Shown: positions 4,645 through 15,195 of the stretch, piece after piece
Layout: each line of letters begins with the position of its first letter
Position numbering within the stretch: the stretch's first letter is position 1
DNA from: Sunxiuqinia dokdonensis
GTDB lineage: Bacteria; Bacteroidota; Bacteroidia; Bacteroidales; Prolixibacteraceae
Length of the DNA stretch: 54,654 nucleotides
Reading direction: 5' to 3'
Assembly (NCBI RefSeq): GCF_001270965.1
Contig: NZ_LGIA01000152.1
Location: 1-54,654, forward strand
Position numbers and translations under genes: made by a program
The notes under the pieces: generated by a model
Seen by the model: only the letters and a program-made list of their open reading frames with translations
The model's database searches: none
What the model was told of the DNA's origin: nothing

Positions 4645-4715
4645 GGTCTCTTGGCCGAGTGGCTAGGCAGCGGTCTGCAAAACCGCGTACGGCGGTTCGA
4701 ATCCGCCAGAGACCT
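4645..4715 (+). tRNA. tRNA-Cys (anticodon GCA)
   Basis: A full cloverleaf can be folded. The acceptor stem pairs GGTCTCT (4645-4651) with AGAGACC (4708-4714). The anticodon stem GCGGT/ACCGC encloses loop CTGCAAA with anticodon GCA at 4677-4679. The T arm is GGCGG-TTCGAAT-CCGCC. The discriminator base is T4715, as expected for cysteine tRNAs. CCA is not encoded. A recombinase gene starts 250 bases downstream, so the 3' end of this tRNA is a candidate integration site. Confidence 0.97.
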
Positions 4716-4739
4716 CTTTTTAGGATTCCAAACGACATC

Positions 4740-6279: not shown

Positions 6280-7082
6280 TAAAGAGTCGATTAAATTCAT
6301 TCAATATGTTTACTGGGAACGGATCATATATGTCAATTGCAGGGAATAAACTGCAGACTCCATTTCTTTTGCACTTTACTTTTCGTTCAAAGTCCTCCAC
6401 CTGCCGATGGATCTTTTGACCCACTTTTCATCGCGGTTGTAACGAAAGATATCCTCCAGGGTTGCTTAGTTTTCTTGATCTATTTTGATGTCCCCATACT
6501 TAAGGTCATTATTACTCATCTGGCTGATTCTGCGGGCCTGATAATTATTGCCGGCCTGGGTAAGCACATCCCATAATCGACCCGCCCGATCCTAATGACC
6601 TTCCATGCCTGGATACTTCTTTATATTTGTCCCAGACTAAACGGGGCAGTTATACTGGATGACGGATCCCAGCTTCCGTGCAAATCCTTTGATCAACTTG
6701 AATCAAAAAACCATCATCGCCGGCTTGTCTTATAGAGTAACTTGAAACGGGTTTTAAGTTTCTGAAATCATTCATTATAGATCGCTGCCACCTTGCACAC
6801 TTTTTCATGGCTTCTGGCACGCCGCTAAATTTAAATTTTTGATTTACTGGCGTGAGCTATCCCGGATGAGGTCAACGGGGTGCATGTCAGGTTTTCCATG
6901 CGAAGAGAATGTGAGATATCGAAAGGGAAAAACTGAACACATTCGAAGGACGGTTACCAAGAATAGCAACCGCCCCTTTATCGTTCCGGGAAGCGAAATA
7001 ACTTTGTCAAAAAATTGAGTGGCAAAGAAATAGCACACGCAGATCACCAGCAATTATTTAGAAATCCATTTTTTCCAAATTT
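6280..7082. other. 803-base gene-poor stretch with a possible decayed reading frame
   Basis: No intact gene is supported here. On the minus strand two protein-like stretches can be read. 6820-6650 runs 56 codons (VPEAMKKCARW at the start) to a stop. 6591-6376 continues in another frame (GRLWDVLTQAGNNYQARRIS early on) with an in-frame TAA after DIKIDQEN, then goes on protein-like (LEDIFRYNRDEKWVKR). Interrupted frames of this kind suggest an old gene broken by stops and frameshifts. I do not recognise the family. The short open frames at 6337-6576 (plus) and 6844-7053 (minus) do not look like proteins. Confidence 0.3.
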
Positions 7083-9413
7083 TTATTTTTTACGGATTAG
7101 TACTGACCAATAATTTTCCACATTTTTGACCTCTGACACGTCATGCCCTTCACCGCGCACCGAACCGGGAACATTGTTGATCGGTGCTCCGTCATCCAGC
7201 AAAATTTCTAGGAATTCACCGGAATGCATCTGAGCCAGTTCGATCTTGGTCTTCACAAAATTCATTGGACAAGCCACTCCCCGAAAATCCTTGAAACGTT
7301 TTTCTTGTGCTTCATTTTCGGGGCTTTCAGATTTTGGCTTTACCTGTTTCACTTTAAATTGAAGAGAATCATCCATGCTATTGTATAGCTCAATAACGGA
7401 TGAAGCCAATTCAAAAATGAGTCCCTGGTATTCCTGAAAGTTGCCTTCCGGATTTTTTAGGGCCAGTTGAACCACCGGACCAAATTTCATATCCACATGA
7501 CCCTCACGGATAAAGTCATCTTTGAAAGCGGTAAAAACCTCCTCCCGGTTTTTGGGTTCAATTCCACGGGTAACCAGCAACATACGCGAAGCATGAAAAA
7601 CAACTTCATACAGTAATTGACTCGTTGCTGTTTCATGGAAACTTTCTTTGATCTTCTTCTGAAGTTCCAGGATGAAATCCCTGTCAAAATCGATCATGTC
7701 AAACATTCCGGCAGAACATTCAGCCTGCCCTTTTCCCGTCAACGAGAACAATTCCTGCGCTCCCCAATCGAAATAATAATTTTTGTCTTCTTCAAACGAC
7801 GGGACCTCGTCGTACTTTTTCAGCAACTGACCGATTTCTTTTTCCCCTCCAGCTTGCAAATAGGAATCGAAACCGTCATATGCTTCTTTTCGAGATGCGT
7901 ACAATTCTATCACTTCTGCTGCAAAAACCGGAAGATCACGGGCGCTAATCTGGCCGATCATCTCACCCAAACGAGCTATGCCCCAGCCAGTCTGTCCCCC
8001 AAGCGTGACGTAATAAGCCGGGTAAAGCCTTTCATTCCGCGAAGCCCGTCCGTAAAATCCCAGATTAGCTACCTGGTGTTGTCCGCAGGAGTTCGGACAT
8101 CCGGACAAATTGATCCGGAAATTAGAAACCTTATCCAATGTCAGTTTATCGAGAGTCGAAAGCCTGGATTTAATGGCTTTTGACGCTCCTTTGGAAAGGC
8201 AAATTCCCAGTCGGCAAGTATCGGCGCCGGTACAGGCCACCAGGCTGTTTAAAATCCTCGGAGAACTGATTTCAATCCCAATGGTATTTAAAAGATGAAA
8301 GAGGCTTTGCAGTTGATCTCCGGGAATATTCCGAAGTAAAATATTCTGCCTCATGGTTAAACGGAGGCAGCCGGGCCCAAAAGGTATCAAAATTTGCGAT
8401 AAACGTTCAAGCGTCTTTGCACCGGCCATGCCATGTTCAAACGGGATTTCCACCGAATATAACCCTTGCTGCCGTTGTTCATTCACATACCTTTGGGCCC
8501 AAAGAGTAAAAGCCCTGCTCCCGTCATGAGCCAACCTGTTTGGCTGGCTGGTTGATGCAGGCATTTCAGGAAGGTTCAACGGGTATTTTCGTTCTTGTTT
8601 CAGTTGATTAAAGTAACCGTGAAATAGCTCAAAAACCTTTTCTACTCCCAGTTTATAAAAGATGTATCGAATCCTCGCTTTGTGCCGGTTACGGCGGTTA
8701 CCATGTTCTGAAAAAAGCTGTTTAACCGCTTCGGCAACATATAAAATATCCGACGCCGGAAGAAAGTCAAACAATAAATTCCCTGCCGATGGTTTTGAGC
8801 CCAGTCCGCCGCCAAGAAACACCTTAAAGCCTTTCTCCCCGTTTAAAGTTGTGGCTAAAAAGCCCAGATCGTTGAATAGCGCATTGGCATTGTCTGACTC
8901 GTTTCCGGCAAAAGCGATTTTGTACTTCCGCGGCAGCGACCATGAATCGGGCTCGGCGATCAGGGTATTGGTCAGCGCCACCGCATACGGCGTCACATCA
9001 AACTCTTCACCCGTAGCAATACCGGCATCTTCTGAAGCCATGATGTTACGCACAGTGTTCCCTCCGCCTCCCCGCGACGAAAGGCCCAGATCATACAGTT
9101 CAGCAAGAATAGCGGGCGTTTGCTCCAGGCTGACATTGTGAAACTGTAATTCCTGGCGGGTTGTGAAATGGATCGGTTCGCAGCCATGTTTTGCGGCAAT
9201 TCGTGCAACACCAAGCAACTGCGCAGGAGAAATTACTCCGGCAGCACAGCGTGCCCGTACCATATAGGTTCCGTTGTTCCGCTGCTCATAAATTCCCATC
9301 GGGACACGGATCGCTTTAAATTTGACAGGTTCAATTGTCCCACTCTGAAAATCTGTTATTTCGCGGGAAAAAGCTTCTATTTCACGTTTTAGTGTATTGG
9401 GTATCGTGTACAT
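7083..9413 (-). CDS. Sulfite reductase fused to HEPN-like and TusA-like domains
   Basis: 776 residues, last gene of the sulfur operon, 17 bases behind the JAMM protease. Residues about 1-510 form a nitrite/sulfite reductase with two ferredoxin-like half-domains and the siroheme/[4Fe-4S] ligands: Cys-x5-Cys in CTGADTC (near 392-398) and Cys-x3-Cys in GCPNSCG (near 437-441). It should reduce sulfite to sulfide in the cytoplasm. Residues about 560-690 are helical and resemble a HEPN domain (LLYEVVFHASRMLLVTRGIEPKNREEV). The last ~75 residues are TusA/SirA-like with the CPMNFVK motif (Cys near 712), a persulfide-carrying fold. Ordinary sulfite reductases lack both tails. The TusA tail suggests that nascent sulfur is passed on as a persulfide rather than released; that is inference. 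Nitrite as substrate is possible but the neighbours argue for sulfite. Confidence 0.88.
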   Translation of the reverse strand: MYTIPNTLKREIEAFSREITDFQSGTIEPVKFKAIRVPMGIYEQRNNGTYMVRARCAAGVISPAQLLGVARIAAKHGCEPIHFTTRQELQFHNVSLEQTPAILAELYDLGLSSRGGGGNTVRNIMASEDAGIATGEEFDVTPYAVALTNTLIAEPDSWSLPRKYKIAFAGNESDNANALFNDLGFLATTLNGEKGFKVFLGGGLGSKPSAGNLLFDFLPASDILYVAEAVKQLFSEHGNRRNRHKARIRYIFYKLGVEKVFELFHGYFNQLKQERKYPLNLPEMPASTSQPNRLAHDGSRAFTLWAQRYVNEQRQQGLYSVEIPFEHGMAGAKTLERLSQILIPFGPGCLRLTMRQNILLRNIPGDQLQSLFHLLNTIGIEISSPRILNSLVACTGADTCRLGICLSKGASKAIKSRLSTLDKLTLDKVSNFRINLSGCPNSCGQHQVANLGFYGRASRNERLYPAYYVTLGGQTGWGIARLGEMIGQISARDLPVFAAEVIELYASRKEAYDGFDSYLQAGGEKEIGQLLKKYDEVPSFEEDKNYYFDWGAQELFSLTGKGQAECSAGMFDMIDFDRDFILELQKKIKESFHETATSQLLYEVVFHASRMLLVTRGIEPKNREEVFTAFKDDFIREGHVDMKFGPVVQLALKNPEGNFQEYQGLIFELASSVIELYNSMDDSLQFKVKQVKPKSESPENEAQEKRFKDFRGVACPMNFVKTKIELAQMHSGEFLEILLDDGAPINNVPGSVRGEGHDVSEVKNVENYWSVLIRKK

Positions 9414-9430
9414 GATTTTTTTTGAATTTC

Positions 9431-9826
9431 TTAAATGAGTGTATAATCAACCGACGTGACTTTTCCGTTTTCGATCTTGAAAAATTTCAGGATTTCAGCG
9501 GGTTCAGCCAATGAAATGATACCATATAAAATTTGAGGATCGAATGCCAACCTGATATCTTCTTTCGAAGGCCTGGCCGGCGTTTCCGGGTGACTATGAA
9601 AGTTGGCAATAATTTCCAGCCCTTTATTACGGGCATTGATCATTGTTTCAAATTGCTCTTTCGGATCAAAGGAGAAATGCTCCGGGCTGTGATCGATATT
9701 GGTCAACCTGTAACAATGGGTAATTTTATTATCCTTTCCCGCCAAATAGCCACAGGCCTCATTGGGCAACTCCTCCCTGGCAATCTGTTGGATTTGTTCC
9801 AGGACGTTTCGCTTTATTTTAATCAT
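9431..9826 (-). CDS. hcyD: JAMM/MPN+ metalloprotease, sulfur-carrier processing (HcyD/Mec-like)
   Basis: 131 residues counted from ATG 9826 (MIKIKRNV); the open frame extends to 9916 but the extra 30 residues overlap the upstream gene and do not resemble the family. The zinc signature H-x-H-x7-S-x2-D is complete (HSHPETPARPSKED), with the upstream catalytic Glu in NEACGYLAG. Bacterial JAMM proteins of this kind remove residues after the Gly-Gly of ubiquitin-like sulfur carriers (Mec in Mycobacterium, QbsD in Pseudomonas, HcyD in Wolinella). The carrier encoded three genes upstream ends in GGG-Ser-Ile, so a substrate needing just this cleavage is in the same operon. Confidence 0.88.
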   Translation of the reverse strand: MIKIKRNVLEQIQQIAREELPNEACGYLAGKDNKITHCYRLTNIDHSPEHFSFDPKEQFETMINARNKGLEIIANFHSHPETPARPSKEDIRLAFDPQILYGIISLAEPAEILKFFKIENGKVTSVDYTLI

Positions 9827-9851
9827 TTGTCTGTTGTTTTTAACGATTCGA

Positions 9852-10652
9852 TTAATGTAAATCGCAAGCTGGCATTTCCTCCATCTCCAGAGTCTTGATT
9901 TCAGGATGTTCTCCACAGAGTTTACAGTTTTTGTTTGGTGTGAAATTGACTTCCCTGAATTTCATTTTCAGTGCATCGAAAATCAACATGCGGTTGGTGA
10001 GCAAATCTCCGGTCCCAACCAAATATTTGAGTGCTTCCGTCGCCTGAATTGTTCCCAACATTCCCGCTATAGAGCCTAAAACTCCCGCCTGAGAGCAGCT
10101 GGGCACTGCATCTTTTGGTGGCGGCCCACCAAATACACAACGGTAGCAGGCACTTCCAGGAACATAAGTCATTGTTTGCCCCTCGAAGCGAAGAATGCCC
10201 CCGTGCGAAAATGGCTTTTGCGCCATCACGCAGGCATCGTTCACCATAAATTTGGTGGGAAAATTATCGGTGCCGTCAATTATAAAATCATAATCGTTGA
10301 TGATCTCGAACGCATTGTCCGGCATCAACAGCGTCTTGTAAGTGTTGACTTTGACTTCTGGGTTGATCAGCTTGATTTTATTGGCAGCAGATTCCACCTT
10401 GGGAACATTCAGGTCAGCGGTAAAATGGATCACCTGCCGTTGCAGGTTCGTTCGGTCCACCACGTCGCCATCAATGAGACCAATAGTTCCTACTCCAGCC
10501 GCAGCCAGGTAAAGAGCCACGGGCGACCCAAGACCACCCGCACCAACCACCAGCACCTTTCCTTCCATAATTCTTTGCTGGCCTTCGACCCCTACATTCT
10601 GCAGAATCAGGTGGCGGCTGTACCGTTCAATTTGTTCTTCCGTAAAATTCAT
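9852..10652 (-). CDS. hcyF: E1-like adenylyltransferase, MoeB/ThiF family (HcyF-like)
   Basis: 266 residues from ATG 10652 (MNFTEEQIERYSRHL), the typical family start; ATG 10685 would add 11 atypical residues. The nucleotide-binding GAGGLGSP motif, the Asp/Arg region (DGDVVDRTNLQRQ) and two zinc CxxC pairs (CYRC and CKLC) are present. There is no C-terminal rhodanese domain, so sulfide must come from elsewhere. It should adenylate the C-terminal glycine of the ThiS-like carrier encoded upstream as the first step of thiocarboxylate formation. Context favours the homocysteine pathway over molybdopterin or thiamine synthesis, since no moa, moe or thi partner genes flank it. Confidence 0.88.
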   Translation of the reverse strand: MNFTEEQIERYSRHLILQNVGVEGQQRIMEGKVLVVGAGGLGSPVALYLAAAGVGTIGLIDGDVVDRTNLQRQVIHFTADLNVPKVESAANKIKLINPEVKVNTYKTLLMPDNAFEIINDYDFIIDGTDNFPTKFMVNDACVMAQKPFSHGGILRFEGQTMTYVPGSACYRCVFGGPPPKDAVPSCSQAGVLGSIAGMLGTIQATEALKYLVGTGDLLTNRMLIFDALKMKFREVNFTPNKNCKLCGEHPEIKTLEMEEMPACDLH

Positions 10653-10681
10653 TCCTAACGATTTTTGGTTTTTGTTTGCTT

Positions 10682-11920
10682 TCAAATTTGTTGAAATGCA
10701 CTTGCCAGATCATTGATCAGATCTTGCCTTTCTTCAATGCCCACGGCCAACCGGATAGTGGTTTCGCGAACATCAAGCGACTTCAGCGTGGCAGCATCGT
10801 ACTCGCAAAAGATCGTCGATGCCGGATGCAGGATCAGTGACTTGTTATCATTGATATTCGTGGCTTTCCGGATTAGCTGAAGTCCATTAATCATCTCGAA
10901 ACATTGCTCCTTCGACTCCAGGTCAAACGTAAGCACTGCTCCTGGTCTCTTTCCAAACTGCTGCTGGCTGACTTCATAAAAGTGAGAACTTTTTAAGCCA
11001 GGATAGTTCACCGAACGTACCTTGGGCTGGGCTTCCAGCCATTGAGCAATAGCCTGTGTATTGCGACAAGCCTGGTCTACCCGGAGCGTGAAAGTTTCCA
11101 GTCCCAGTGACTGCAACCAGGCATTGTGTGCAGATAAAGTTGCCCCCAAGTTCCGGGCCACTTCTTTTCGCAGTTTGGCCATTAGTGCGAACGGTCCGAA
11201 TTTTCTTGCGAACGGAGCGACTTTCCGGTTTTTAGCCCAATCATATGTTCCATTGTCCAGAATAACTCCTCCTAACGCAGTGGCACCTCCAGAAATGAAC
11301 TTGGTGCTGGAAATCATCTCCACATCAACGCCAAACTCTTTCGACCGAAAGAGGTAAGGTGGAGTGAGGGTAGTGTCGGCCAACAAAAGCAGATGATGCT
11401 TACGCGCTATGGTTGCCAGCTTCCTGGTATCCGCCACTTCCATTTGCGGATTGGTGATGGTTTCGAAAAAGATGGCCCGTGTATTTACATCAATCAAAGG
11501 TTCGATCGTCTCAGTCCGGCTGAAATCAGCAAAACGAAATTCGATTCCCAAATCCGTCAGCGTTTCGGCGAACAGCGAATAGGTATTGCCAAAAATCTTT
11601 CGGGTGGTTATGATATTCTCTCCTTGTCCGGCAATAGCAACCAGCAGGTTACTGAGAGCAGCCATTCCAGTCGAAAAAGCCATGCTTCCCAAAGCCCCGG
11701 ATACTGTGCGCATTTGATTTTCAAAATGCTCCAATGTCGGGTTAGTGATCCTGGAATAGACATGCCCGGCTTTACTGCCTCTGAAAGCCGCTTCAATCTC
11801 TTCCGCTGAATCAAAACTAAATGCAACACTGTCATACACCGGCATCCGCAGCGCTTGATGGCTATCTTCACGCAAATAAGGCGTGTGCAAAACTTTAGTA
11901 GAGAAGTCAAGTGGTTCCAT
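10682..11920 (-). CDS. metY: O-acetylhomoserine sulfhydrylase-type PLP enzyme (MetY)
   Basis: 412 residues from ATG 11920 (MEPLDFSTKVLHTPY); the longer frame to 11986 overlaps the carrier gene. Cys/Met-metabolism PLP-dependent fold; the PLP Lys lies in SSTKFISGGATALGG, with the conserved YSRITNPT and STGMAAL motifs near the N-terminus. It would replace the acetyl group of O-acetylhomoserine with sulfur to give homocysteine. In the Wolinella succinogenes pathway the sulfur donor is the thiocarboxylate of a small carrier protein, and the carrier gene here lies 19 bases upstream. Cystathionine gamma-synthase or lyase activity cannot be excluded from sequence alone. Confidence 0.85.
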   Translation of the reverse strand: MEPLDFSTKVLHTPYLREDSHQALRMPVYDSVAFSFDSAEEIEAAFRGSKAGHVYSRITNPTLEHFENQMRTVSGALGSMAFSTGMAALSNLLVAIAGQGENIITTRKIFGNTYSLFAETLTDLGIEFRFADFSRTETIEPLIDVNTRAIFFETITNPQMEVADTRKLATIARKHHLLLLADTTLTPPYLFRSKEFGVDVEMISSTKFISGGATALGGVILDNGTYDWAKNRKVAPFARKFGPFALMAKLRKEVARNLGATLSAHNAWLQSLGLETFTLRVDQACRNTQAIAQWLEAQPKVRSVNYPGLKSSHFYEVSQQQFGKRPGAVLTFDLESKEQCFEMINGLQLIRKATNINDNKSLILHPASTIFCEYDAATLKSLDVRETTIRLAVGIEERQDLINDLASAFQQI

Positions 11921-11939
11921 ACATTTAGATTGATACCTT

Positions 11940-12152
11940 TTAAATTGAACCACCGCCCATGAAATAAAGGAAATCAACCTGATCATTTTCTTTTAGGAGG
12001 GTTGATTCTAACTGTTCTTTAGCAATGAAAGCTCCGTTTAACTGAACTGTTACCATTTCAACAGTCTGAACGCCGTTCGCTTTCAAAACTTCTGCAACCG
12101 AAACCTGTGTGCTTTCAATTGCGCTTTCTTTTCCGTTAATTTTAATGTTCAT
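11940..12152 (-). CDS. hcyS: ThiS/MoaD-like sulfur carrier with a C-terminal Ser-Ile tail (HcyS-like)
   Basis: 70 residues with a beta-grasp fold (MNIKINGKES; LKENDQVDFLYFMGGGSI). ThiS and MoaD normally end in Gly-Gly, the site of thiocarboxylation. Here two residues (Ser-Ile) follow the glycines, so the protein cannot be adenylated until they are removed. The same operon encodes the JAMM protease to do that, an E1-like enzyme for activation and MetY as the acceptor enzyme. It sits 26 bases after the OsmC gene. Thiamine-pathway ThiS is the alternative, but no thi genes are nearby and the masked tail argues against it. Confidence 0.88.
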   Translation of the reverse strand: MNIKINGKESAIESTQVSVAEVLKANGVQTVEMVTVQLNGAFIAKEQLESTLLKENDQVDFLYFMGGGSI

Positions 12153-12178
12153 TGTTCTTGATTTTTATTTTTAACTAT

Positions 12179-12631
12179 TCAGATTGCTGCTGCCTCCAAG
12201 ACTAGATTAAAAGAAAGTGGAGTTGGATTAGCAAGATTATCATTGATTGGACACCGGGCTTTGATCGTTTTGATCCAGTTTTCAATTTGTCCAGGCGATG
12301 CGTCTGTCTCAGGTGAAAAGTGCACATCAATTTGCTTGAACCCGGCCCTCTCGTCATCTGATTTTCCCAGCAGCCGGGCAGGATTAATGCTTCCCTGAAC
12401 TGCTATCTCAAGTCTTTTAAGATTTACACCTAATTCACGTGCAGTAAGATGTGCAACTACATTTATGCAACCTGCATAACTTGCCAATAAATACTCAACA
12501 GGATTGGCCCCAAAATCATCGCCGCCCAAAATAGGAGGCTCATCAATAATAAGATTAAACTGCCGGACATCTGCAGAAAAGCGGGCTGCCGACTGAGCCT
12601 TTCCCTGGACTCTAAATTTAAGATCTGTCAT
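12179..12631 (-). CDS. OsmC-family thiol peroxidase-like protein
   Basis: 150 residues. OsmC/Ohr fold with both redox cysteines: one in ASYAGCINVV and one in KARCPINDNL, the usual spacing for the family. OsmC proteins reduce organic hydroperoxides through a reactive thiol. It is the first structural gene behind the attenuator and the first of six tightly packed genes (gaps of 17-29 bases). The membership in a sulfur-transfer operon suggests a role with sulfane-sulfur or persulfide rather than general osmotic stress; that part is inferred. Confidence 0.85.
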   Translation of the reverse strand: MTDLKFRVQGKAQSAARFSADVRQFNLIIDEPPILGGDDFGANPVEYLLASYAGCINVVAHLTARELGVNLKRLEIAVQGSINPARLLGKSDDERAGFKQIDVHFSPETDASPGQIENWIKTIKARCPINDNLANPTPLSFNLVLEAAAI

Positions 12632-12650
12632 TCTATTTTAGTTTTTTGAT

Positions 12651-12683
12651 AAAAAAAAGCCTCTCACAATGTTGTGAAAGGCT
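12651..12683 (-). terminator. Leader terminator (attenuator) of the sulfur operon
   Basis: On the minus strand AGCCTTTCACAA (12683-12672) pairs with TTGTGAGAGGCT (12669-12658), a 12-bp stem with one G-T pair and a very short loop, followed by seven T (12657-12651). It lies between the leader peptide and the OsmC start (12631), so it would stop transcription before the operon. Confidence 0.85.
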
Positions 12684-12719
12684 CAGAATTTATTCGCTCT
12701 TTAAATATGTCTCTGTATT

Positions 12720-12782
12720 TTATAAAAGCATGACTCCACCTTCCACATGTTTGAACAACATACAGCAACACATACACATCAT
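12720..12782 (-). CDS. Cys/Met-rich leader peptide of the sulfur operon
   Basis: A 20-codon frame (ATG 12782, TAA 12720) too short for ordinary gene finding. The peptide begins MMCMCCCM: four Cys codons at positions 3, 5, 6 and 7 and Met at 1, 2, 4 and 8, then LFKHVEGGVMLL. The Cys codons lie 16 to 30 bases before GTGGAAGG (12746-12739), which can pair with CCTTTCAC (12681-12674) of the terminator stem. A ribosome stalled on the Cys codons for lack of charged tRNA-Cys would leave GTGGAAGG free to form this antiterminator. The codon bias, position and pairing agree with an amino-acid attenuator like trp or his. Nothing shows directly that it is translated. Confidence 0.75.
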   Translation of the reverse strand: MMCMCCCMLFKHVEGGVMLL

Positions 12783-12796
12783 GCTATTGGAAAGTG
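12736..12796 (-). promoter_or_regulatory. Alternative leader RNA pairing (anti-antiterminator)
   Basis: CACTTTCC (12796-12789, just before the leader ATG) can pair with GGAAGGTG (12743-12736) with one G-U. This sequesters the antiterminator strand. AGCATGAT (12786-12779) can also pair with GTCATGCT (12734-12727). The two pairings are mutually crossing. With the antiterminator 12746-12739 : 12681-12674 and the terminator, this gives the 1:2, 2:3 and 3:4 exclusive pairings of a classical attenuator. Confidence 0.55.
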
Positions 12797-12827
12797 ATAA
12801 GTTCATCAATTTTGTCTTTTGATAGTA

Positions 12828-12848
12828 ATCCTACCGTTATTATAGGAT
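12828..12848. repeat. Inverted repeat ATCCTA-N9-TAGGAT upstream of the leader
   Basis: ATCCTA (12828-12833) and TAGGAT (12843-12848) form a 6-bp inverted repeat 46 bases upstream of the leader ATG. A weak -7-like TAAGTTTA lies at 12857-12850 on the minus strand. It may be an operator or a 5' hairpin. Confidence 0.3.
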
Positions 12849-12919
12849 GTAAACTTAGTAATTATTCAGAAATTTGTCCCCATCACCCCTTTATTTGTAA
12901 TGGTTATAAATAGGCCGTA

Positions 12920-13387
<468 letters not shown>

Positions 13388-13407
13388 TTAATTGATTAAT
13401 AGTTTTT

Positions 13408-15195
13408 TTATTTTGAAAATGGCATATAGGGCTTACCACCTCCTTTAAACCCGGCATTTTTATAAAACTCTACAAATGTCAAACGCATTGGATGAACAAA
13501 TGCCCCAAGTGATGAGATAGCCAGGTTTGCCGTATGCCCGACCACAATGATCAGGAAGAAGATGACCGGTCCAACATAGGGTGCCTGGCCAAATGAAACA
13601 GCCATTTGGTTGATGACCAAACCCAAAATAGAACTGGCAATCCCCAATGCAAACAAGCGGATATACGACAACAAATCGCCAAAAATACCCGTGACCGTAT
13701 TGTACATTTCCCAAAGCCCGCCGATCATCCGCATGTGAATCGACCCGGTTCCGGAGAAAAAGAGAATCAATAAACCAGACAACATGAAAAGACCGGTTTC
13801 CATGACCTTCTGCAGGGTAGAAGTTCCGGTATCTTTCAAAAGAAACTCGAACACGGCTGCAGTGAAAAACAAAAGCAGCCAGCCCACCGAACTTAAAGCC
13901 TGGAGCGGGTAAGGTTGTTTCAACTGGTTTTTCACCCGCAGGACGATACCGAAGATGATTTGTATGGCACCTATGATTAATGCCAATGTAAAGACTTGTT
14001 CGCTTTTCAGGAACATTTCCCTGACATTCTCCAAAGCGGGCACCTTTGCAAGCTCAATTCCGAAGAAAGTTCCGAAAATCACACCCATGGCGAAAGTGGA
14101 AACACCAAAAAGCTGCCCCAATGTCAGAAAGTTTCTCGTTTCAGAAGAAACAAACCTTTTGGCAATGGTTGAACCCAGCAACAAAACCAATCCATAGCCT
14201 GCATCGCCCAGGCAAAAGCCAAAAAACAGCATGAAGAACGGGGCGAAATAAATTGTCAGGTCCAGCTCTTGATAGGCTGGCAATGCAAACAATTTGGCAA
14301 TTGGTTCAAACAGCCTTCCGAATTTATTATTTAGTAGCTGAACCGGCGGCTCTTCGTCTGCTGTGCCTGGCGATTTTTCATACATGATATGATTTTCCTT
14401 CAGGTATCTTTTCAATTTTGCTTCCGCGGTCACAGGCACCCAGCCTTCCAACACCTGAATGGCCCCTTCTCCTATTTCGGCCGCCGGATGGTGACAAACC
14501 CGGAGCCAATCCAGCCTTGCCTGTATCCATTTCAACCTGTTTCGAAGTACTTCCCAACCCGTATTGGCAGTTGTTCGTAATTGCTCTTCGATACTGTCGA
14601 TTTCCTTTTTTGCCGCTTCCGCTTCTTCCGTCAACTGAACAAACTGTTTCCGGCAAGGAAATTCCTTTTGGCATCCTGCAAATTCTTCTTTGGACTGACC
14701 AATAACAACAAATTTGATCACTTTTGAATCCTGGTGCACAATTTCCAACGGGAAACCGTTCAACCAATCTGCATTAAATTTTTTGGGCGAAGCGGAATAG
14801 AAATTGAGTGTTAATCCAACTTTAGTCAATTCGTTCACCAGTTCATCCGAATAATCACCCCAGATTTCGCGAATTGCTTTTGCTTTCCGCAGAAGGACCA
14901 ATTCTTGACGATTTGCTTCCAGTTTTTTATATAACCCGGCGGTTTGATCCACAAGTTCAGCAGCCTTCCGGTCTGCTCCTGTAGTCTTGTCCTCCGGATT
15001 TTTGTATGGTTTTAGTATTTCAAGCGTTTTCCTAATCCTGTCTGTTTCTGGGCCAAGAACATCAACTTCACAGGGAAGTGAACCGTTTTTGCCGGTATCG
15101 ACATGTACCACCCCCAGTTCTTGCAAATCATCAAGAAAATCCGGGTATAACCTGTAATACAGGACAAATGAATATTTCTTCATTGGAATAATCAT
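13408..15195 (-). CDS. ntpI: V-type ATPase subunit I (stator membrane subunit a)
   Basis: 595 residues. The N-terminal half is cytoplasmic and coiled-coil rich, linking to the peripheral stalk. The C-terminal half (from about 310) has seven or so membrane helices with the conserved GDAGYG and HTANLAISSLGAFVHPMRL stretches that form the ion half-channels. ATG 15195 overlaps the stop of subunit D by four bases (ATGA), typical of translational coupling; Met5 (15183) is an alternative. Confidence 0.93.
   Translation of the reverse strand: MIIPMKKYSFVLYYRLYPDFLDDLQELGVVHVDTGKNGSLPCEVDVLGPETDRIRKTLEILKPYKNPEDKTTGADRKAAELVDQTAGLYKKLEANRQELVLLRKAKAIREIWGDYSDELVNELTKVGLTLNFYSASPKKFNADWLNGFPLEIVHQDSKVIKFVVIGQSKEEFAGCQKEFPCRKQFVQLTEEAEAAKKEIDSIEEQLRTTANTGWEVLRNRLKWIQARLDWLRVCHHPAAEIGEGAIQVLEGWVPVTAEAKLKRYLKENHIMYEKSPGTADEEPPVQLLNNKFGRLFEPIAKLFALPAYQELDLTIYFAPFFMLFFGFCLGDAGYGLVLLLGSTIAKRFVSSETRNFLTLGQLFGVSTFAMGVIFGTFFGIELAKVPALENVREMFLKSEQVFTLALIIGAIQIIFGIVLRVKNQLKQPYPLQALSSVGWLLLFFTAAVFEFLLKDTGTSTLQKVMETGLFMLSGLLILFFSGTGSIHMRMIGGLWEMYNTVTGIFGDLLSYIRLFALGIASSILGLVINQMAVSFGQAPYVGPVIFFLIIVVGHTANLAISSLGAFVHPMRLTFVEFYKNAGFKGGGKPYMPFSK

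Follow-up and report, generated by a model that had tools for sequence, protein, structure and literature searches.

A candidate cysteine-codon attenuator before a protein-thiocarboxylate-type methionine operon of Sunxiuqinia dokdonensis, with related leaders at other sulfur operons

The leader of an osmC-led sulfur operon on the minus strand of the window (the whole 54,654-nt stretch of Sunxiuqinia dokdonensis DNA considered here) is very probably a ribosome-mediated transcription attenuator that senses how much charged tRNA-Cys is available. It combines the features of such attenuators: a conserved short ORF, codons linked to the operon, three mutually exclusive helices (1:2, 2:3, and 3:4), and a terminator with a U tract. 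From these features, we infer that the leader is translated, stalls ribosomes, terminates transcription, and responds to starvation. With this leader included, the genome appears to have at least three Cys-leader units, which would make up a small cysteine 'ribulon'.

A conserved leader ORF with a cysteine core

The preliminary description of this DNA had proposed a 20-codon leader frame starting MMCMCCCM. The frame itself (MMCMCCCMLFKHVEGGVMLL) is present at 12720-12782, with its start (base 12782) at codon 9 of a longer ORF; because the upstream in-frame ATG is invariant, and the intervening stretch open, in all 21 aligned leaders of this type, the true start is probably that ATG, 8 codons further upstream, for a total of 28 codons. 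The same alignment provides the comparison with related genomes that had been set beforehand as a test, and the leader passed it, with the ORF and its Cys core kept in 21/21 leaders and the helices paired in 96.6-100% of alignment cells. Cys occupies the three core positions in 21, 17, and 18 of the 21 leaders, encoded at each position by TGT in some leaders and TGC in others, with Ser (4) or Arg (3) as the exceptions; two of the three positions thus vary, and the Met codons on either side are invariant. Gap runs inside the ORF part of the alignment are only 3 nt (64) or 6 nt (26) long, these 90 counts being row-wise over related sequences and not 90 separate events, and gap runs 3' of the ORF part in the same leaders come in ten different lengths from 1 to 12. 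Coordinates are collected in Table 1.

Table 1. Features of the leader, its operon, and related loci (window positions unless a locus is named)
Feature	Position	Strand	Remarks
Promoter -7-like box TAAGTTTA	12850..12857	-	exact TAnnTTTG in 15/21 leaders; window copy deviates at last base
Inverted repeat ATCCTATAATAACGGTAGGAT	12828..12848	.	CCTA-N9-TAGG, just downstream of -7-like box; 10/21 osmC-type leaders
Leader peptide ORF MNLSLSNSMMCMCCCMLFKHVEGGVMLL	12720..12806	-	28 codons + stop; open in 21/21, start ATG invariant
Segment 1 CACTTTCC	12789..12796	-	pairs with 12737-12744; seven of eight pairs counted
Cys-codon cluster TGT ATG TGT TGC TGT	12762..12776	-	codons 11-15; 4 Cys in 5 codons
Small hairpin TATGTT/AACATG inside ORF	12746..12762	-	paired in 98.4% of cells; UA to CG in 3/21
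Segment 2 GTGGAAGGTG	12737..12746	-	common to helices 1:2 and 2:3; GTGGAAGG part is 12739-12746
Segment 3 CCTTTCAC	12674..12681	-	antiterminator partner and 5' arm of terminator
Intrinsic terminator	12651..12684	-	12-pair stem 12657-12684 and T8 12651-12658; ten counted pairs paired in 100% of cells
OsmC-like protein, first gene	12179..12631	-	PF02566
ThiS-like sulfur carrier, HcyS-like by context	11940..12152	-	PF02597; TIGR01683 (thiS) above NCBIfam cut-off; C-terminus GGGSI
MetY-like O-acetylhomoserine sulfhydrylase	10682..11917	-	PF01053; best NCBIfam TIGR01326, below cut-off
ThiF/MoeB-like adenylyltransferase	9852..10658	-	PF00899
JAMM (Prok-JAB) metalloprotease	9431..9829	-	PF14464
Sulfite/nitrite reductase, C-terminal TusA domain	7083..9413	-	PF01077, PF03460, PF01206
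Cytophagales-type loci	L050-L054, L056-L058, L060, L061, L063, L066-L069, L071, L073, L075, L077		~100-450 nt before osmC

Within the 54.7-kb window, a scan found a single short ORF that combines four or more Cys in 8 residues with an end no more than 80 nt from a terminator, and 60 first-order Markov simulations gave none. The motif TGYNNNTGYTGYNNNATG matches 14 sites in the 5.0-Mb genome, one of which is the osmC leader; at 12 of the other 13, no ATG opens a short, Cys-rich ORF resembling a leader. A 22-codon ORF containing CCCC (MLHRCCCCSMIILNWESARISC; L082, C104:1020-1037, minus strand) lies within a 283-codon open frame of another frame and probably arose by chance.

Upstream of the leader ATG, by 44-51 nt, sits a box resembling TAnnTTTG, which we take to be the Bacteroidota promoter -7 consensus; its position suggests a predicted start site that leaves an untranslated leader before the ATG. 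The adjoining inverted repeat is possibly an operator near the transcription start and thus a second control layer. Its CCTA-N9-TAGG form is present in 0/16 of the cysK or sulfite-operon leaders checked, and the pattern TCCTAYN7RTAGGA has a single site in the genome.

The 21 leaders, the window included, come from a sample of osmC upstream regions assembled from sets of 46 and 30 loci, which after removal of duplicates left 59 distinct regions. In another 19 of the 59, mostly from Cytophagales families, the ORF is longer and its Cys run is terminal or nearly so, and three (L059, L062, L065) carry a short frame of the MDM(M)CCM type upstream of osmC. No leader was recognisable in the other 16, mostly upstream of distant osmC genes and including loci where osmC follows another gene as well as an osmC with a stop (L031). 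On a contig shared by L153 (G123:C250) and L074, Cys leaders stand in tandem, one before an osmC fragment matching residues 1-66 only and one before the next cysK.

Mutually exclusive helices and an intrinsic terminator

Both structural claims made for this leader held up: a 12-bp hairpin with a T run lies before the first gene, and the three exclusive pairings among CACTTTCC, GTGGAAGG, and CCTTTCAC can form on the minus strand as described. All 21 leaders have a stem with a tract of T7 or longer behind it. Since a terminator scan of 6500-14000 returned 7 sites against 8.1 expected by chance, it is by stem length and T run, and not by mere presence, that the leader hairpin stands out. The 156-nt leader (12645-12800) has a predicted folding energy of -42.9 kcal/mol (z -3.46), with none of 200 dinucleotide shuffles as stable, and in the free fold helices 1:2 and 3:4 are formed.

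Across the 21 leaders (alignment A2), bases are paired in 96.6% of 147 cells for helix 1:2, 98.8% of 168 for helix 2:3, 100% of 210 for helix 3:4, and 98.4% of 126 for the small hairpin inside the ORF. Sliding the partners by 1-3 columns lowers pairing to 45-69% for 1:2 and 2:3, to 31-63% for 3:4, and to 17-81% for the small hairpin. Changes on both sides of a pair occur in three cells of helix 1:2 (L003, L015, L020), three of helix 2:3 (GC to AU; the window, L045, L047), one of helix 3:4 (the window), and three of the small hairpin (L043, L045, L047). The covariation score was reached by 1, 0, 70, and 2 of 500 shuffles for 1:2, 2:3, 3:4, and the small hairpin, respectively, and the count of double-change pairs by 42, 172, 70, and 240; because the double changes are few, fall in related sequences, and are not clearly above the shuffles in number, covariation taken alone is modest.

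No Rfam family matched the leader at its gathering score. The best weak match was PyrR (32.4 vs 54 bits), and the sub-cut-off matches near the leader (PyrR, ncr1575, ctRNA, Qrr), which we rejected, probably reflect its hairpin and U tract. The leader matched no T-box, either at the gathering score or at E up to 1, and no SAM riboswitch (RF00162); over the whole window, only tRNA matched at gathering score. A tRNA-Cys gene had also been placed about 8 kb away; it is present (4645-4716), but it is not evidence for the mechanism. A plasmid search gave no match.

A proposed kinetic switch between terminator and antiterminator

We propose that, when cysteine is sufficient, the ribosome would pass the Cys codons and segment 2 and leave at the stop; after its release, 1:2 would re-pair, segment 3 would be free for segment 4, and transcription would terminate at T8 before osmC. 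When charged tRNA-Cys is short, the ribosome would halt at codons 11-15 and block the pairing of segment 1 with segment 2. In this stalled state, 2:3 would pair once segment 3 is made and the terminator would be pre-empted, so that the operon for protein-thiocarboxylate-type homocysteine/methionine synthesis and sulfite reductase would be transcribed.

We folded the leaders under a ribosome constraint, assuming a footprint that reaches from 17 nt upstream to 15 nt downstream of the A-site start. In RNA ending just after segment 3, 2:3 formed in 18/21 leaders with the ribosome on the first Cys codon, and in only 16/21 with it on the last. Without a ribosome, segment 2 paired with bases before the Cys codons (1:2-type) and 3:4 formed, in 21/21. 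When full-length RNA was folded with the first Cys codon occupied, 18/21 leaders nevertheless formed the terminator, so the switch must be kinetic (co-transcriptional), as in classic attenuators. Positioned at the stop, the ribosome masks no more than 4/8 of the segment 2 bases, and 2:3 could then form in 12/21 leaders, the window's not among them; for termination in the fed state, the model would also need ribosome release and re-pairing of 1:2.

The operon behind the leader

The operon (Table 1) resembles, in its gene set, the protein-thiocarboxylate methionine pathway of Wolinella, which Krishnamoorthy and Begley (2011) are said to have described as comprising a carrier and ThiF-like, JAMM, MetY-like, and reductase proteins. 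Unlike the Wolinella set, the operon in the window has an OsmC-like gene in first place, behind a Cys leader. The pathway is cited in PMC5764234 and PMC6225789.

In six relatives (two of them identical to a third), the carrier ends in GGGS plus 4-6 residues; such extensions, like the GGGSI tail in the window, would suit trimming by the JAMM protease. Gene order is identical in L034, L037, L041, and L043, which have an extra stretch between the ThiF and JAMM genes that matches part of the reductase query, and it is identical across the available DNA in L005 and L035. Other relatives have a CysK-type gene after osmC (L033, L045, L048) or no convincing operon.

Cysteine leaders elsewhere in the genome and family

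A covariance model built from the 21 osmC-type leaders was searched against the organism's own genome, 140 genomes of the family, and 395 of the phylum. In its own genome, where the window leader itself scores 142 bits, the model found two further Cys leader-terminator units, bringing the genome's number to three: MNFTFSNIYMCCCMMTTWGRYV before cysK (C198:1942-2071, 63.8 bits; TIGR01139 above cut-off) and MKMTCTMMCMCCGLFMQKGKKI before a cysJ-cysI-siroheme operon (C160:11441-11573, 55 bits) ordered DUF2061, precorrin-2 dehydrogenase-like (PF13241; named by context), cysJ, cysI, HEM4, NAD-binding protein, and cobA. A fourth full-length match (C156:5508-5647, L236; 29.3 bits, E 6.1e-4) is a Leu/Ile-rich leader, MTRIYSISILGILLGILLWMR, before leuA; at L235, a leader peptide MKLFSTYIIILVVVILGTS precedes ilvD. 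Both are candidates for classic branched-chain attenuators in the family. All remaining matches in the own genome are partial or weak.

Family-wide, 134/140 genomes have matches at E up to 0.01, many of them weak. Among the matches listed, we considered those of full length to E 5.5e-7, less the training loci (76), together with the C156 match; of these 77, 73 lie upstream of a cysteine or sulfate-assimilation gene, or 74 if HemA is counted. We took as the next gene the longest ORF with its start no more than 330 nt away, a few of these being truncated at contig ends, and classed it by BLAST at E 1e-3 to seeds typed by Pfam. It encodes CysK in 51 cases, a precorrin-2 dehydrogenase-like protein in 14, CysJ in 4, DUF2061 in 3, and CysD in 1; HemA, a LuxR-type regulator, ilvD, and leuA account for one each. 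As the model was trained on Cys leaders, the Cys richness of its matches is not independent evidence, but the identity of the downstream genes is. The two Cys-less matches, which stand before ilvD and leuA, have Ile/Leu/Val leaders; the codons of a leader thus follow its operon. One cysK match (L232) has no readable Cys ORF within the matched stretch. At L113 (G139:C129:1915-2060), an MCMCYF leader and hairpin precede a LuxR-type response regulator, possibly linking cysteine supply to that regulator or else a chance occurrence.

Pairing energies between segment 2 and the terminator arm, usable for 97/98 units, indicate that the average fit of a leader to its own terminator exceeds its fit to the terminators of other gene classes. 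Own-arm means are -15.0 for OsmC (n=21), -12.2 for CysK (n=50), and -12.5 for P2DH (n=14), and means across the OsmC, CysK, and sulfite-operon classes (P2DH, CysJ, DUF2061) range from -6.7 to -11.1; within the last group, the three classes fit one another at -10.1 to -13.7. With random partners of the same class the means are -10.2 (CysK), -11.8 (P2DH), and -14.6 (OsmC), so that the CysK fit, at -12.2 with the own arm, is partly particular to the unit. Nor is fit always class-specific, as OsmC leaders pair with CysK arms at -10.8 vs -10.2 for other CysK leaders. The fit of leader to terminator is thus largely retained despite differing sequences.

Distribution across the phylum and stacking with SAM riboswitches

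At E up to 0.01, 180/395 phylum genomes (own included) contain matches, most of them weak. Of 29 loci among the matches listed (own genome excluded), 19 match the model at full length, and 15 of these precede MetY-like (9), MetN-like (3), rhodanese (2), or CobA-like (1) genes, ten of the proteins having been typed by Pfam and the other five by near-identical N-termini. Among their 15 ORFs, 11 have three or more Cys in 8 residues, those of L122, L129, and L135 have two, and that of L142 has one. The remaining four full-length matches (L132, L136, L139, L140) have no recognised sulfur gene downstream. The other ten loci are terminator-only matches, none of them before a recognised sulfur gene by eye, and were treated as chance. 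Leaders with both Met and Cys codons stand before metN-like methionine transporter genes at L135, L138, and L150.

A check in other families, centred on cysK, makes no use of the model. The cysK search matched 64/148 genomes, and in 7 of the 29 upstream regions among the matches listed there is a short ORF with three or more Cys in 8 residues, vs 1/29 on the reverse strand; a single family (f14) supplies 4 of the 7, and a clear terminator is visible by eye in L250 and L255. The other 22/29 listed regions lack such an ORF, so the device is not universal.

Of the 19 Cytophagales-type osmC loci, nine were tested for a SAM riboswitch (RF00162), and all nine have one upstream of the Cys-run ORF, giving the order SAM riboswitch, ORF with a terminal or near-terminal Cys run (e.g., CMCCCC-stop), osmC-metY; most of these leaders have no clear T-tract terminator by eye. 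The reverse order is found at L125:1501-1801, where a Cys/Met leader with a terminator-like end is followed by a SAM riboswitch (1677-1801) and metY; this riboswitch was the one Rfam match among ten loci with other leaders. A weak Rfam match to RT-9 was seen in L057.

Taken together, we think it likely that Bacteroidota possess a cysteine 'ribulon', in which independent Cys-codon attenuators, unrelated in sequence from lineage to lineage, precede cysK, cysJI-siroheme and OsmC/thiocarboxylate-methionine operons, metY, metN, cobA, and rhodanese genes, and in some lineages are stacked with SAM riboswitches, in one order or the other, such that one transcript integrates SAM and charged tRNA-Cys.

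Discussion

Among the alternatives to a leader that senses cysteine through its Cys codons, the one closest to it is a sulfur-amino-acid attenuator at which ribosomes stall on the Met as well as the Cys codons of MMCMCCCM. We hold such a contribution of Met to be possible but rather unlikely, and the chance we allow it overlaps with the far greater one we give to the Cys-codon attenuator. The operon's product is homocysteine and then methionine, the Met codons flanking the Cys core are invariant in 21/21 leaders, Met-rich leaders such as MMCMCCYM and NMMCCGAM occur before metY and metN elsewhere, and the leader MMMCMM of L142 has a single Cys, all of which would fit a Met signal. However, the second Met codon lies within the small hairpin, which may explain its invariance, and, with Cys leaders standing before cysK and cysJI as well, the shared factor is cysteine. 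Furthermore, six of the seven cysK Cys runs in other families (4/7 from one family) have no flanking Met (e.g., FCLCCCCG, FCCCLCCG, CCCTPCCG), which favours cysteine as the signal.

The remaining alternatives each dispense with some part of the attenuator. Mycobacterial polycysteine ORFs reportedly (Canestrari 2020) act by translational control, and a Cys-run stall that frees the start of the first gene could suit most Cytophagales-type leaders, which lack a clear T-tract terminator by eye; for the window, with its 12-pair hairpin and T8 and a stem followed by at least T7 in 21/21 leaders, we regard this as quite improbable. An equally slim chance attaches to a terminator under protein or metabolite control (a riboswitch or RNA-binding protein) with an incidental ORF: the conservation of structure would be expected, but no Rfam family reached its gathering score (PyrR fell at 32.4 vs 54 bits), and gaps in threes and the match between codons and operon argue for translation. 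That the hairpin merely ends an upstream transcript, with Cys codons nearby by chance, is hardly credible; intergenic terminators are common and the next upstream ORF (12920-13375) is on the same strand, but the ORF and helices are kept in 21 leaders and the promoter-like box in 15, 0/60 simulations gave such a unit, and the arrangement recurs before cysteine genes.

The Cys-codon attenuator preferred here belongs to a known kind. The trp, his, and leu leaders are ribosome-mediated transcription attenuators, and like them the window leader has a short ORF with codons for an amino acid, three exclusive helices, and an intrinsic terminator before a biosynthetic operon; it differs from them in that the amino acid is cysteine, the host belongs to Bacteroidota, and segments 1 and 2 lie within the ORF, with the stop downstream of segment 2. 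The mycobacterial polycysteine ORFs of Canestrari et al. 2020, reportedly also the source of the word 'ribulon', are reported to be leaderless and to act on translation. They share with the present leaders the placing of Cys-run ORFs before several cysteine operons of one genome, as a ribosome-coordinated set, whereas the window leader has an intrinsic terminator. These ORFs are cited in PMC9094748.

In PMC1262725, cys leaders of Actinobacteria are presented as having no conserved terminator hairpins. The uORFC-8-2 before cysS in Rhodobacterales (PMC8632094) is similar in that its short ORF contains Cys codons and has a terminator-like stem and U run behind it, and differs in its two tandem Cys codons, its cysteinyl-tRNA synthetase gene, and its host group, the Alphaproteobacteria. 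Within Bacteroidota, attenuation by leader peptides is suspected for amino-acid operons of Flavobacterium psychrophilum (PMC9723704), and leader-peptide candidates are given for B. thetaiotaomicron (PMC7366714); the main text of these sources, as far as accessible, names no cysteine leader. The literature searched, with subscription papers and supplements outside its scope, yielded no cysteine leader in Bacteroidota. Thus, although the kind of mechanism is known, a cysteine-leader regulon in Bacteroidota is probably undescribed.

To our knowledge, the regulation of cysteine synthesis is poorly described in Bacteroidota, which are major gut and marine degraders. Codon-level leaders at three sulfur operons of one genome and in its relatives would offer a direct answer, with no repressor protein needed. 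The leaders may also serve as functional labels that tie the OsmC-like protein, DUF2061, and the thiocarboxylate methionine cluster to cysteine supply, and their stacking with SAM riboswitches would make a natural two-input gate.
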